Below are positions 40,203-44,762 of a stretch of DNA of 50,422 nt, piece after piece. The stretch comes from an uncultured Massilia sp. (lineage in GTDB: Bacteria > Pseudomonadota > Gammaproteobacteria > Burkholderiales > Burkholderiaceae_D): NCBI GenBank assembly GCA_913777025.1, contig CAJYQM010000322.1:1-50422 (forward strand), given 5' to 3'. Under the pieces are notes generated by a model that saw only the letters and a program-made list of their open reading frames with translations, was not told the origin of the DNA and searched no databases. Numbering within the stretch: the stretch's first letter is position 1; the number at the start of each line of letters is the position of its first letter. Made by a program: the position numbers and the translations under genes.

Positions 40203-43088
40203 TCACTCGAAGGTATAGCGCGCCCCCACCGTGAAATACCTGCCGCGCGCGCCTTCGTAATCCAGCGGGTTGTACGCCTGCGCCCCATAGGTCAGCGGAT
40301 CGAGCGGTGCCACCTTGTCGAACAGGTTCTGGATCGATCCGAACACTTCCCATTTCGGCAGCGGCTTCCAGCGCGCCACCAGGTCGAAGGTGGTGAAGGA
40401 AGCCAGTTCGCAATCGGTCGGTGCGTCGGCGCCGTTGGCATAGTGGCTGGCGCAGCCGTCCGGATCGTTCTTGAACAGGACGTTGTCGAGCTTGCCGCGG
40501 AAGTTCACATTGAGCGACACGCGCCAATCGTTGCGGTCCCAGCCGAGGCGCAGGTTGGCCTTGTTGTCGGGCGTGCCCGTGCAATTGGTGATGTCGCAGT
40601 TGCCATGGGTGCCGGAAAAGTCGCGTGAGGTGCCGTCGCGCTCGGTACGGGTCCACTCGAAGAAATGCGTGTACTTGGCGTCGAGACTCAGGTTGCCCCA
40701 GGCGTCTGGCAGACGATACTGGTAGCGCCCGTCGACGTCGAGACCGCGCACCTTGGTCTGGGCCGAATTGACGTAGCGCGACAGCACGGCCAGCAGGGCA
40801 CCGGGGTCACCCGGGATGCCGCTGTTGCTGGCGGGATCGCGCACCACGCTGCCGGCGGCGATGGCGGCATCGGTCTGGTCCTGGTTGATCTCGTTCTTGC
40901 GTTTGATGGTCCAGTAATCGACCGAGATGCTGGCGCGCGGGATCGGATCCCAGATCACGCCCACGTTGTAGCTGCGCGAACGCTCGGGCGACAGGGCCGG
41001 GTTCGGCGAGGTGATCACGGCGACCGACGCGGCATCGCAGGTGCCCGGCACGCCCAGCGCGCAGCGTACCGGGTCGGCGGCGGTGGAGTAGGCCGCCAGG
41101 CCGCCGACGCCGTTCTCGGCCGGGCTGGGGGCGCGGAAGCCGCGGGCGAAGGTGCCGCGCAGCGCGAATTCCCGGACAGGCGTCCATTTCAGGCCGGCCT
41201 TCGGGGTAAATGAACTGTTGACGTCGGTGAAATAGTCCCAGCGCATTGCCGCCGAGGCTTCCAGGTTGAAGGGCAGCGGCGCCAGCCCCTCGCCGTACAG
41301 CGCGAACACATTGCGCCCGCCCGTATAGGCCGAGTAACCCAGGCCGATGATGTTGCCGCGTTCGGTGCCGCTGGTCGGCCGCAACTCGGTGTATTCGCGG
41401 CGCCACTCGGCGCCGACTGCCAGGCCCAGCGGCGCGGTCAGGTAGGGAATGCCTTCGAATTCGCGCGTGGCCTTGACATCGCCCTGGATGACCTTGCTAT
41501 TGGCGCGGTTGCCGATGGTGGGCGACAGGGCGGCGTACAGGGCCGGCGAATTCAGCGGCGCATTCTCGGCGATGCGCCAGAAGGTGCCGGGTGGCAGCGC
41601 CGCGTAGGCCGGGTTGGCCAGTGCGGCCGCGACGTTGGCCGGGCTAGGGTCGAGCAGGGCGAAGGCGACGTCGCGCTGCAGGTAGCCGTTCTGGACGTTG
41701 TTGACGTGGTTGTGCGAGAACAGGATGGCCGAATCCCAGTCCCAGCCGAAATGGGTGCCCTTGGCGCCGCCGACCCAGCGCAGGAAGTTGGAGCCGATGT
41801 TCGATACCCGCGGGCCGACGTCGGCCGCGATGTAGCGCAGGCGCGCAGGGCTGCCGAAGTAGGGATTGTCCGGATGCCCGGCGCCGAACTGCACGGTGGC
41901 ATTGTTGACCGGTCCGCCGGGGTAGCCGACCGAGCCGTTGATGCCCGACGGCGTGGTCGCGGAATCGGTCTGGCTGGTGTAGTAGTTGAATTCGCTGTAG
42001 ACCTGCAGGTTCGGCGTTGCCTGCCAGGTGCCGCGTGCAAAGAAGCTGAGGTTTTCCTGCTTCGGCTCGATCTGGTTGTACTGCAGGGTCGAGTCGATCA
42101 GGCAGCCGCCGCCGGGGTCGCCCTGCGGGTGGCTGGTGAAGTTGGAGCAGGCGGCGCCGGGGAAGGTGCGGGTGAAGCCGGGCCCGGCCAGGTTGCCGCG
42201 GTTGTAGTAGTTGGCCGGGTCGGCCGGGTTGCGCACGTTGCCGTTGATGGCGCTGCCGGCCCCGCCGCTGCCCGGGATGATGGCGCCGGTGCCGCCCAGG
42301 TTCTCGTTGGCCGAGTAGCCCCAGGGCCGCAGGTCGATGCGGCCGATCCAGTCGCGATCGGCGCGGTCGCGGTACCAGATCTCGTCGAACTTCTTGTATT
42401 CGACGCTGAACAGGAGGTTGTAGCGGTCGCTGTCGAGGCTGCCGACACCCTTGGTGAAGGCGAGGTTGGTGCGCTTGCCGTCCCACTCGTCGCCGACGCC
42501 GCGCGAGAAGCGGAAGGTGTTGCCCTGGTAATCGCGGCGCAGGATGACGTTGACCACGCCGGCAATCGCATCGGAACCGTAGATGGCCGAGGCGCCGTCC
42601 TTCAGCACCTCGATGCGGTCGACGGCGCCGGTCGGTATCACGTTCAGGTCGGAGAACTGCTTCTGGCCGTCGTCGGCCAGGCCGTAGGGCGCCATGCGGC
42701 GGCCGTTCAGCAGCACCAGCGTGGAGGACGCGCCCAGGCCGCGCAGCGAGATGCCGGAGGCGCCGGCGGCGAAGCCGTTGCCGAAGGTGGTCGGCACCGA
42801 ACCCTGGTTGTCGACCGCCAGCGTCTGCAGGAGCTCGGCGACGGTATTCTTGCCGGATTTTTCGATGTCGGCGCGGTTGACCGTGATGACGGAGGACGCG
42901 GTTTCGGCTTCCGAGCGGCGGATGTTCGAACCGGTGATCTCCACGCGCGCGACGGGCTTGGGCGCCGCTTCCTGGGCTTGTACCGGCGCCGGCAGCGCCA
43001 GCACCAGCATGCCGACGGCGCCACCGCCCGCGAACAGGCGCCGTATCGACCGGCAGATCGGTGTTTGGGTCAGCGGTGTTTCAGTCAT
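40203..43088 (-). CDS. TonB-dependent outer-membrane receptor G
   Basis: A 961-residue receptor. The signal peptide is long and ends near residue 38 (PAPVQA/QEA), then RVEITGSNIRRSEAETASSV. The plug has FGNGFAAGASGISLRGLGASSTLVLLNGRRMAPYG and [27 protein letters not shown]; the barrel has GTFARGFRAPSPAEN. Near the C-terminus it carries the loop motif GTHGNCDITNC and GCASHYANGADAPTDC, shared with receptor H, then GSIQNLFDKVAPLDPLTYG. It ends RYTFE: a Glu after the usual terminal Phe. The frame extends to 43532, but ATG 43088 has GGAG seven bases upstream and a proper signal peptide. It lies between tldD and aroG, genes often adjacent in relatives, so it may be an insertion. Substrate unknown. 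Confidence 0.92.
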   Translation of the reverse strand: MTETPLTQTPICRSIRRLFAGGGAVGMLVLALPAPVQAQEAAPKPVARVEITGSNIRRSEAETASSVITVNRADIEKSGKNTVAELLQTLAVDNQGSVPTTFGNGFAAGASGISLRGLGASSTLVLLNGRRMAPYGLADDGQKQFSDLNVIPTGAVDRIEVLKDGASAIYGSDAIAGVVNVILRRDYQGNTFRFSRGVGDEWDGKRTNLAFTKGVGSLDSDRYNLLFSVEYKKFDEIWYRDRADRDWIGRIDLRPWGYSANENLGGTGAIIPGSGGAGSAINGNVRNPADPANYYNRGNLAGPGFTRTFPGAACSNFTSHPQGDPGGGCLIDSTLQYNQIEPKQENLSFFARGTWQATPNLQVYSEFNYYTSQTDSATTPSGINGSVGYPGGPVNNATVQFGAGHPDNPYFGSPARLRYIAADVGPRVSNIGSNFLRWVGGAKGTHFGWDWDSAILFSHNHVNNVQNGYLQRDVAFALLDPSPANVAAALANPAYAALPPGTFWRIAENAPLNSPALYAALSPTIGNRANSKVIQGDVKATREFEGIPYLTAPLGLAVGAEWRREYTELRPTSGTERGNIIGLGYSAYTGGRNVFALYGEGLAPLPFNLEASAAMRWDYFTDVNSSFTPKAGLKWTPVREFALRGTFARGFRAPSPAENGVGGLAAYSTAADPVRCALGVPGTCDAASVAVITSPNPALSPERSRSYNVGVIWDPIPRASISVDYWTIKRKNEINQDQTDAAIAAGSVVRDPASNSGIPGDPGALLAVLSRYVNSAQTKVRGLDVDGRYQYRLPDAWGNLSLDAKYTHFFEWTRTERDGTSRDFSGTHGNCDITNCTGTPDNKANLRLGWDRNDWRVSLNVNFRGKLDNVLFKNDPDGCASHYANGADAPTDCELASFTTFDLVARWKPLPKWEVFGSIQNLFDKVAPLDPLTYGAQAYNPLDYEGARGRYFTVGARYTFE

Positions 43089-43322
43089 GTCTGGACTCCA
43101 TGTGCAATAAAGGAAGAACCCGCAACCGCTGCCAGCGCGGGCCAACGGTGCGCGAGCCGGGCGGGGCTTGTTGCGACTTTTGCATTGGAGCCAAAGCTGG
43201 GAGTGACATCGCTCAAGTGTGTCCGGCACAGCCGGATCGGGTGTCGGCTTCATGCAACCGATCGTCTTGTATAGGCGAGTCGACGCGACGGACAACGGGC
43301 AGGCGATGCGCGGACAAAGCGC

Positions 43323-43352
43323 TTGCCAAGGCTGACATATTGTTGTTATAGT
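43323..43352 (+). promoter_or_regulatory. Extended -10 promoter of the aroG leader
   Basis: TTGCCA (43323-43328) and TATAGT (43347-43352) are 18 bases apart, with TGT directly before the -10 forming an extended -10. Transcription would start near 43359, leaving about 18 bases before the leader ATG at 43377. The position fits the attenuator described downstream. Confidence 0.6.
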
Positions 43353-43376
43353 CGTTCGGACATTTCGGACGAGACC

Positions 43377-43445
43377 ATGCGCCACACCGCCTTCTTTACC
43401 TTTTATTTTTGGTTTAGCCATTCCAGCCCAACGGCGGTGGAGTAG
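43377..43445 (+). CDS. Aromatic-rich leader peptide of aroG (attenuation)
   Basis: A 22-codon ORF starting at ATG 43377 and ending at TAG 43443. Codons 6-13 encode FFTFYFWF, that is seven aromatic residues (five Phe, one Tyr, one Trp) in eight. It ends SSPTAVE. This is the composition expected of a leader whose translation senses charged aromatic tRNAs, as in the E. coli pheA and pheST leader peptides. A weak GGACGAG precedes the ATG. The ORF lies between an extended -10 promoter and an intrinsic terminator upstream of aroG, which makes the first enzyme of aromatic synthesis. Its product would have no function of its own. The sequence arrangement is seen; regulation is inferred from the known mechanism. 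Confidence 0.8.
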   Translation: MRHTAFFTFYFWFSHSSPTAVE

Positions 43446-43517
43446 CGGCAGGTTCACGCGACAGCAGAACGAAGTCCGACACAGATTCCAGAAAAACCGC
43501 CAGCGATGGCGGTTTTT
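43385..43517 (+). promoter_or_regulatory. Transcription attenuator (1:2, 2:3, 3:4 pairings) of aroG
   Basis: Region 1 CACCGCC (43385-43391, leader codons 3-5) can pair with region 2 GGCGGTG (43433-43439). Region 2 GGCGGT (43433-43438) can instead pair with region 3 ACCGCC (43496-43501), which is the 5' arm of the terminator. Region 3 pairs with region 4 (43507-43517) as the terminator. A ribosome stalled on the aromatic codons (43392-43415) would cover or closely follow region 1, freeing 2 to pair with 3 and allowing read-through. A ribosome at the stop codon (43443) would cover region 2, allowing termination. The pairings are read directly; function is inferred. Confidence 0.72.
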
Positions 43518-43521
43518 TTTT
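43492..43521 (+). terminator. Attenuator terminator upstream of aroG
   Basis: An 11-bp stem pairs AAAAACCGCCA (43492-43502) with TGGCGGTTTTT (43507-43517) around a GCGA (GNRA) loop, with nine Ts in all. It sits 38 bases before the aroG ATG and after the leader ORF. No other plus-strand gene upstream needs it, since receptor G is on the minus strand and starts 400 bases away. Confidence 0.9.
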
Positions 43522-43559
43522 GCTCCCGGCACCCCATATTTTCAGAACGGAGAACAGCA

Positions 43560-44621
43560 ATGCCCCGCACCGACGACTTACGCATCCGCGAAATGAAGGA
43601 ACTGACCCCGCCCGCGCACCTGATCCGTGAGTTCCCGGTGACCCCGGCGGCGGAGCAGACGGCGTCGCAGGCGCGGATCGCGCTGCACCGCATCCTGCAC
43701 GGCCAGGACGACCGCCTGATGGTGGTGATCGGCCCGTGCTCGATCCACGATCCGCAGGCCGCGCTGGAGTACGCGCGCCGCCTGGCCGAACAGCGCGAGC
43801 GCTTCAAGGGCGAACTCGAGGTCGTGATGCGGGTCTACTTCGAAAAGCCGCGCACCACGGTCGGCTGGAAGGGGCTGATCAACGACCCGTACATGGACAA
43901 CAGCTTCCGCATCAACGACGGCCTGCGCATGGCGCGCGAACTGCTGCGCGACATCAACGAGCTGGGCTTGCCGGCCGGTACGGAGTTCCTCGACGTGATC
44001 AGCCCGCAGTACATCGCCGACCTGATCAGCTGGGGCGCGATCGGCGCGAGGACAACGGAATCCCAGGTGCACCGCGAGCTGGCCTCGGGGCTGTCCTGCC
44101 CGGTCGGCTTCAAGAACGGTACGGACGGCAACATCAAGATCGCGGCCGACGCCATCAAGGCGGCGTCCCAGGCGCACCACTTCCTGTCGGTGACCAAGGG
44201 CGGCCACTCGGCCATCGTGTCGACCGCCGGCAACGAGGATTGCCACATCATCCTGCGCGGCGGCAAGACCCCGAATTACGACGCCGCCAGCGTCGACGAG
44301 GCTTGCCGCGCCCTGGCCGCGAACGGCCTGGCCAGCCGCCTGATGATCGACGCCTCGCATGCGAACAGCAGCAAGAACCCGCAGAACCAGGTGCCGGTGT
44401 GCGCCGACATCGCCGGCCAGGTGGCCGGCGGCGAGGACCGCATCGTCGGGGTGATGGTCGAGTCGCACCTGGTGGGCGGGCGCCAGGACCTGGTGCCGGG
44501 CAAGGAACTGACCTACGGCCAGTCGGTCACCGACGGCTGCATCGACTGGGAAACCAGCCTGGGCGTGCTGGAAGGCCTGGCGGCGGCCGTGCGCCAGCGC
44601 CGCCTGCGCGAGGACGCATAA
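43560..44621 (+). CDS. aroG: 3-deoxy-7-phosphoheptulonate (DAHP) synthase, AroG type
   Basis: A 353-residue class I DAHP synthase, which condenses phosphoenolpyruvate and erythrose 4-phosphate at the entry to the shikimate pathway. Visible motifs are the metal-binding Cys60 in VVIGPCSIHDPQAALEYA, PRTTVGWKGLINDP, SWGAIGARTTESQVHRELASGLSCPVGFKNGT, and DASHANSSKNP. Length matches the E. coli AroF/G/H group, which are feedback-inhibited by single aromatic amino acids; which one acts here cannot be told. The ATG at 43560 has GGAGA seven bases upstream; the upstream extension to 43506 would lie in the terminator. Expression is probably controlled by the leader peptide attenuator at 43323-43521. It is flanked by the paralogous receptors G and H, both on the other strand. 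Confidence 0.96.
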   Translation: MPRTDDLRIREMKELTPPAHLIREFPVTPAAEQTASQARIALHRILHGQDDRLMVVIGPCSIHDPQAALEYARRLAEQRERFKGELEVVMRVYFEKPRTTVGWKGLINDPYMDNSFRINDGLRMARELLRDINELGLPAGTEFLDVISPQYIADLISWGAIGARTTESQVHRELASGLSCPVGFKNGTDGNIKIAADAIKAASQAHHFLSVTKGGHSAIVSTAGNEDCHIILRGGKTPNYDAASVDEACRALAANGLASRLMIDASHANSSKNPQNQVPVCADIAGQVAGGEDRIVGVMVESHLVGGRQDLVPGKELTYGQSVTDGCIDWETSLGVLEGLAAAVRQRRLREDA

Positions 44622-44734
44622 GAAAAGCCGCCGGCACTGCTGCTGGCGGCCTTCGCTTCATGCCGCAATCGCCAGAAGCGGCAGGTCAGGTCGGCATACA
44701 CGGCTGAGGCCTCGAGTTTTCCCCTCTCGGACAT

Positions 44735-44762
44735 AAAAAAGGCGGTGATCGCTCACCGCCTT
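44735..44762 (-). terminator. Intrinsic terminator of receptor H
   Basis: On the minus strand the stem AAGGCGGTGA (44753-44762 complement) with TCACCGCCTT (44739-44748 complement), loop of four bases, is followed by six Ts. It lies 28 bases after the receptor H stop. A weaker stem after aroG (GCCGCC 44627-44632 with GGCGGC 44645-44650) may end the aroG transcript. Confidence 0.85.

Follow-up and report, generated by a model that had tools for sequence, protein, structure and literature searches.

The window analysed here, a stretch of 50,422 nucleotides from an uncultured Massilia sp., belongs to an assembly of 4.7 Mb in 542 contigs that is 83.5% complete. It carries aroG, the gene for a DAHP synthase, preceded by a candidate leader region with the following elements (basis of each assignment in brackets).

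43323-43328, plus strand: promoter -35 element TTGCCA (direct sequence reading)
43344-43352, plus strand: extended -10 element TG-N-TATAGT, with TATAGT at 43347-43352 and a spacer of 18 nt (sequence)
43377-43445, plus strand: leader peptide ORF MRHTAFFTFYFWFSHSSPTAVE*, 22 codons (sequence; counterparts in relatives)
43392-43415, plus strand: putative regulatory codons 6-13, FFTFYFWF (third-base T/C variation, TTT enrichment, distance to region 2)
43421-43428, plus strand: region 1, UUCCAGCC (fold, co-variation across 15 families, pair counts)
43433-43443, plus strand: region 2, GGCGGUGGAGU (GGCGG:CCGCC core pairing; folds)
43485-43489 and 43496-43501, plus strand: region 3, AUUCC and ACCGCC (MFE structure of the nascent RNA with masked ribosome, co-variation)
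43508-43513, plus strand: region 4, GGCGGU
43492-43517, plus strand: intrinsic terminator 3:4, DNA AAAAACCGCCA-GCGA-TGGCGGTTTTT (sequence)
43492-43521, plus strand: terminator RNA AAAAACCGCCA GCGA UGGCGGUUUUU plus four further U (sequence, folds, co-variation)
43560-44621, plus strand: aroG, DAHP synthase, 353 aa (NCBIfam NF006723, 591 bits, cutoff 568; PF00793, 319 bits)

The leader region is bounded by aroG and by a gene on the minus strand whose translation, judged by eye, suggests a TonB-type receptor. Taken mechanically, the receptor ORF extends over 40203-43532 and spans the entire leader, so that an automatic gene caller could mask the leader; judged by eye, the true start of the receptor is probably the ATG near 43089. 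Downstream of aroG a hairpin with an A tract at its left side is found (AAGGCGGTGA-TCGC-TCACCGCCTT, 44734-44762), which by eye appears to be the terminator of the minus-strand receptor gene that lies there. The same assembly encodes a second DAHP synthase (L002, 51% identity), and inspection by eye of about 480 bases upstream of it revealed no comparable leader.

The initial annotation had described a TTGCCA-N18-TATAGT promoter with extended -10 element, a 22-codon ORF reading FFTFYFWF at codons 6-13 and a GGCGGTG motif at the ORF end, all of which can be read directly from the DNA, the motif lying at 43433-43439 within region 2. In a promoter scan of 43000-44000 the site at 43323-43352 was the lone sigma-70-like site, with 0.1 expected, and TTGCCA/TATAGT was also the top-scoring site in the four f1 relatives examined. 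When one ORF of 12-50 codons is counted per stop codon on both strands, the window has 593, of which a single one has seven aromatic residues in eight codons, the runner-up having five; clustered codons for end products, characteristic of a trp-type attenuator, are present as FFTFYFWF. Region 1 follows directly after the aromatic codons, and codons 10-13 (YFWF) would, given an assumed footprint, be positioned for a stalled ribosome to cover it. Region 2 runs through the final part of the leader ORF as far as the first base of the stop codon, and in helix 1:2 positions 43421-43425 pair with 43438-43442 and 43426-43428 with 43433-43435. The antiterminator 2:3 comprises 11 bp with an A-rich bulge in the MFE structure of the nascent RNA with the stalled ribosome masked. 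An intrinsic terminator lies between leader and gene, its end at 43521 being separated by 38 bases from the start of aroG at 43560. Its proposed 11-bp stem with GCGA loop was recovered, but not the nine trailing Ts, as five Ts of the run at 43513-43521 are inside the stem and four unpaired Ts remain after it; a terminator scan requiring five Ts after the stem reported none. The arrangement GGCGG-N40-65-CCGCC-N3-16-GGCGGTTTTT occurs a single time in the Massilia assembly, at the leader.

Lack of conservation in relatives had been named beforehand as an observation that would speak against attenuation, and 118 of the 195 distinct regions sampled upstream of aroG (one remaining duplicate included, L240 = L108), spread over 9 of 25 families, turned out to have both leader and terminator. 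A region was counted as positive if it contained at least five aromatic residues in eight codons plus a CCGCC/GGCGG-type terminator, a rule that leaders with other arms escape. Positives made up 53/55 regions in the window's family f1, where L066 and L097 had no detected leader, 36/36 in f30, 8/8 in f8, 8/10 in f4, 5/5 in f21, 3/3 in f11, 2/2 in f48, 1/1 in f42 and 2/5 in f18. The 16 other families, represented by 1 to 9 regions each, yielded a leader in 0 of 70 sampled regions and account for 70 of the 77 leaderless ones, the zeros for f9 (3) and f28 (6) not amounting to absence from these families, in both of which a covariance model finds the leader. L113-L115, L128, L132, L136 and L138 were left out of the survey, the last four being the genomes of L240, L236, L241 and L233.

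The sample is weighted towards close relatives, as it was drawn from the best aroG matches. From an aroG protein search the best 80 of 591 loci were taken, covering Massilia, Janthinobacterium, Duganella, Herbaspirillum, Collimonas, Undibacterium, Paraburkholderia, Caballeronia, Burkholderia, Pandoraea and other genera, and loci with a genus name were put into f1 (Oxalobacteraceae) or f30 (Burkholderia group) by title and leader type. In genomes of the order, aroG was found at E<=1e-60 in 230/300, and 100 places, chosen largely from the head of the list and including some duplicates, contributed upstream regions. A DNA search of the window's family with 43300-43620 matched some part of the query in 134/145 genomes, where the query extends 61 bases into aroG and a number of the weaker matches cover only the aroG end or the terminator. 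In a Cupriavidus plasmid record (H15) the leader stretch has no annotated feature, and a Mycetohabitans leader region had no DNA match among plasmid records. In 23 of 26 sequences of f4, f8, f11, f21, f42 and f48 the best -10-like element stops 6-10 bases short of the leader ATG (counted without a shuffled control), which would place the start of the leader mRNA in these six families at or near the AUG, making it near-leaderless; in most f1 sequences this gap is 22-36 bases.

Searched with a covariance model of pairs 1:2 and 3:4 that was built from 61 sequences, 399 Burkholderiales genomes yielded matches in 154 (E<=0.01) or, at the stricter E<1e-5, in 103, some of these matches being there partly by construction since some of the 61 sequences came from the searched genomes. 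Of the 103 strong matches, 102 immediately precede aroG in the same orientation, as placed by tblastn on loci (30), by tblastn on fetched stretches (46) or by aroG coordinates (27, two of them from loci). The model added five families (f3, f9, f10, f38 and, with one genome, f28), and among 13 weaker matches examined (E 1.1e-5 to 7.9e-4) three precede aroG (L338, L341, L344). The one strong match located elsewhere (L331 in G255, f26; E 2.8e-6) has a leader-like ORF with VYFYWY, a GCCGCC/GGCGGC hairpin and a short T run, and the gene downstream had no Pfam match. In f42 the RNA model still matches L330, L332 and L334, where 3, 4 and 1 aromatic codons remain before aroG, possibly reflecting decay or a changed sensed signal.

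Of 232 genomes of the class the model matched 21 at E<=0.01, and outside the order strong matches are confined to two f60 genomes (1.6e-13 and 2.1e-9, both before aroG; the next is 8.6e-4). These loci, L273 and L276, belong to another order and carry the same type of aroG attenuator, the L273 leader reading FYFWYYFPKPLAEEG, which would point either to transfer or to an origin older than the order Burkholderiales. The L281 locus (1444-2805) of G691, from another order, has a leader with CFFYFSFF at its end and a CCCCCAG/CTGGGGG hairpin before a divergent DAHP synthase gene (PF00793 182 bits; 36% identity of the protein to that of the window), and this looks like an independently evolved attenuator.

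The leader ORF bears marks of codon-level selection. In-frame TTN and TAN codons of the aromatic block in 102 sequences comprise 333 TTT, 96 TTC, 103 TAC, 94 TAT and 2 TTG with zero TTA, TAA or TAG, the other two frames containing 31 and 151 TTA; the missing purines are in part a product of picking the ORFs for aromatic richness, whereas the free T/C exchange is not. Across the same 79 loci Phe is encoded by TTT in 282/364 cases (77%) in the leaders versus 79/511 (15%) in aroG, the TTT fraction being higher in the leader at 77 of 79 loci, and the aroG of the window uses TTT in 0 of 7 Phe codons. This preference fits a stall site that has to be slow and sensitive, or a need to avoid structure. 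All 141 distinct leader peptides contain Phe, 135 contain Tyr, 66 Trp and 63 all three, counted, like the pairing tests, without four f42 leaders that have fewer than five aromatic residues in eight codons (L320, L330, L332, L334).

A rival explanation is nascent-peptide arrest, in which the peptide itself, instead of uncharged tRNA, would stall the ribosome when free amino acid is present, as with TnaC, and peptide tails are indeed kept within families (SYSSPxAVEKR, LRPLADREG). The tails differ between families, however, and the order and number of residues in the aromatic block vary (5 to 8 of 8, 5 being the selection limit), unlike in an arrest motif. Moreover, frame-shifted tails in L036, L038, L068, L077 and L089, each a single draft in which errors are possible, have lost the peptide end and kept the bases of region 2, favouring RNA pairing over an arrest peptide, which we regard as highly improbable.

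The compensatory changes that had been called for in the arms were looked for with a family swap test, in which the duplex energy of a family's own arms was compared with that obtained with the arms of other families and families were permuted (15 families, 149 distinct sequences). With families treated as exchangeable and kinship ignored, all three helices co-vary: 1:2 with p 2.5e-4 (own arms stronger in 13/15 families), 2:3 with p 5e-5 (12/15) and 3:4 with p 5e-5 (15/15), indicating that the mutually exclusive helices are kept by selection. Control pairings gave no co-variation (2:linker p 0.89, 1:4 p 0.31, 1:linker p 0.88), nor did the ORF head with region 2. The latter pairing had been put forward initially, with CACCGCC in the ORF start as region 1; the motif is present at 43385-43391, but its pairing role fell away, with p values of 0.18 and 0.69 (the latter in the control set) against the 2.5e-4 of the proximal arm at 43421-43428, and the ORF head contains a perfect complement to region 2 of at least 6 nt in 34 of 115 leaders, among them 27 from the Burkholderia group and 5 that are Massilia-type. 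Choosing region 2 blind to complementarity shifted 1 of 161 anchors and resulted in p 1e-4 and 5e-5, and the outer extension of 2:3 by itself gave p 0.009. An earlier run with nine families had yielded p 0.008 (1:2), 0.0014 (2:3) and 0.0002 (3:4), own arms not being preferred for 2:3 in f1 (+0.5 kcal), f21 (+1.1) and f42 (+0.2). With short arms, own pairing of 2:3 was stronger in just 50/95, separation being reached only with longer flanks, and p<0.05 versus dinucleotide shuffles was obtained in 56/95. At each of its positions the GGCGG:CCGCC core is paired in 97 to 99 of the 99 distinct sequences.

Pairs were also counted against shuffles in a MAFFT alignment on the fixed register of the window. 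For 3:4, 93.7% of the alignment cells are paired versus 90.4% after shuffling, with 26 double-change cells versus 6.3. The corresponding values for 1:2 are 65.1% versus 62.2% and 38 versus 24.1 cells; counted by pairs, double changes in 1:2 do not exceed those of shuffles (6 versus 5.3; 215/500), and sliding 1:2 by +3 gives 33 double-change cells, near the 38 in register. For 2:3 the fixed register carries no signal (69.1% versus 68.7% paired, 12 versus 14.5 double-change cells), because the GGCGG:CCGCC core hardly varies and its flanks are displaced in the alignment. It is as improbable as peptide arrest that the region holds a plain, unregulated terminator that yields an sRNA upstream of aroG, with aroG transcribed mainly from another promoter: such RNAs are common, 82 5'UTRs of B. 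cenocepacia giving short transcripts (PMC5688073), but this would leave the aromatic codons and the co-varying 1:2 and 2:3 helices unexplained.

RNA folding was carried out for 106 distinct sequences with the ribosome masked, assuming a footprint of 14 nt from the A-site codon. With the ribosome at the last aromatic codon the region 2 core is free in 98/106, and 2:3 forms in the nascent RNA with a mean probability of 0.94 (1.0 in the window; lower in f48, 0.59, and f8, 0.67), whereas with the ribosome at the stop codon, which lies a median of 16 nt (range 6-93) past the start of region 2, the probability of 3:4 is 1.0. Under this footprint, a stalled ribosome would cover region 1 and one at the stop codon would cover region 2. 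In ribosome-free nascent RNA 2:3 (0.65) is favoured over 1:2 (0.19), a difference from the E. coli trp leader, which terminates when untranslated. At equilibrium the complete RNA forms 3:4 with a mean probability of 0.94 when free and 0.93 with a stalled ribosome, and since the full RNA favours the terminator even then, switching has to be kinetic. A metabolite-binding riboswitch with an incidental short ORF could likewise have alternative helices for terminator and antiterminator; it is the least probable explanation, given that RNAalifold on the same alignment returned the terminator only (both-side changes in 3/9 pairs), that the linker varies in sequence and in length (41-77 nt from region 2 to region 3), that the ORF is under codon-level selection and that Rfam has no match at gathering.

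In summary, conservation, codon selection and co-variation strongly support the original proposal of ribosome-mediated attenuation, and aroG is very probably controlled by a transcription attenuator with an aromatic leader peptide. Sequence and statistics establish the ORF, the selection on its codons, the three alternative helices and their placement upstream of aroG, while promoter use, translation, stalling, termination and the identity of the amino acids that count are inferred. RNA polymerase would start near 43359, and a ribosome would follow along the leader ORF. When charged Phe- or Tyr- (or Trp-) tRNA is scarce, the ribosome would stall in YFWF, covering region 1, so that region 2 could pair with the emerging region 3 and the antiterminator would allow read-through into aroG. 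With charged tRNAs, the ribosome would reach the stop codon, which abuts region 2; with region 2 blocked, or paired with region 1 behind the ribosome, the 3:4 terminator would form and transcription would stop at about 43521. That Phe, Tyr and Trp would all be sensed is plausible. An ancient attenuator family of the Burkholderiales acting as an OR gate, in which region 2 would be freed by a stall at any Phe or Tyr codon of the one short run, and at a Trp codon where there is one (roughly half of the leaders), is a tentative reading that we lean slightly against.

Among E. coli systems, the leader resembles pheL/pheA in its Phe-rich peptide, its alternative helices and the terminator before the gene, with the difference that pheL controls pheA and the leader described here precedes aroG. 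With trpL it shares a stall beside region 1 that would free region 2, whereas trpL senses Trp only and controls the trp operon, and in the leader described here region 2 is inside the end of the ORF. As in ilvL of ilvGMEDA, several related amino acids are encoded in one leader, branched-chain ones in ilvL and aromatic ones here.

An attenuator of a DAHP synthase gene, aroR-aroF of Corynebacterium glutamicum, was reportedly described by Neshat et al. in 2014. The C. glutamicum aroF leader peptide contains Phe-Tyr-Phe (PMC4046766) and is stated to respond to Phe and not to Tyr (PMC11802643). Like the Burkholderiales leader, it is an aromatic leader peptide ahead of a DAHP synthase gene; unlike it, it belongs to a different phylum and has FYF only, with Tyr reportedly being without effect, in this comparison of peptide and target gene. 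For gammaproteobacteria, control by TyrR and TrpR is discussed (PMC5343134). Among the matches listed for the open-licence PMC literature no betaproteobacterial aroG attenuator was found, an earlier mention being possible, and the term aroG is absent from the main texts of PMC2965389, PMC4833913, PMC4603805 and PMC5688073.

In Rfam, the window and six relatives had no match at gathering; at E up to 10 the best match was RNAI with 26.1 bits (gathering 47), and the matches are terminator look-alikes. The Phe_leader model RF01859 scored 18.5 bits on the window versus a gathering cutoff of 55, with the base pairs of the match falling on the terminator. Searches of Pfam and NCBIfam with seven leader peptides gave zero matches at E up to 10. 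The novelty initially suggested has to be taken more narrowly: given the known C. glutamicum aroF leader the kind is known, and the Burkholderiales member is new and widespread. Judged by its sequence, the leader is a widespread, putative DAHP synthase attenuator of the classical type without an entry in the libraries searched. Corynebacterium aroR, the unrelated-looking L281 and the Burkholderiales leader together suggest more than one origin of DAHP synthase attenuators.

The leader points to a cis-regulatory RNA of wide distribution and to a group of small coding genes, neither of them matched in the Rfam, Pfam and NCBIfam searches described above. It offers a concrete, testable answer, unlike the TyrR scheme of E. 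coli, to how flux through the aromatic pathway may be set in a large order. If the OR gate were true, a shortage of any one end product would induce the entry enzyme of the aromatic pathway.
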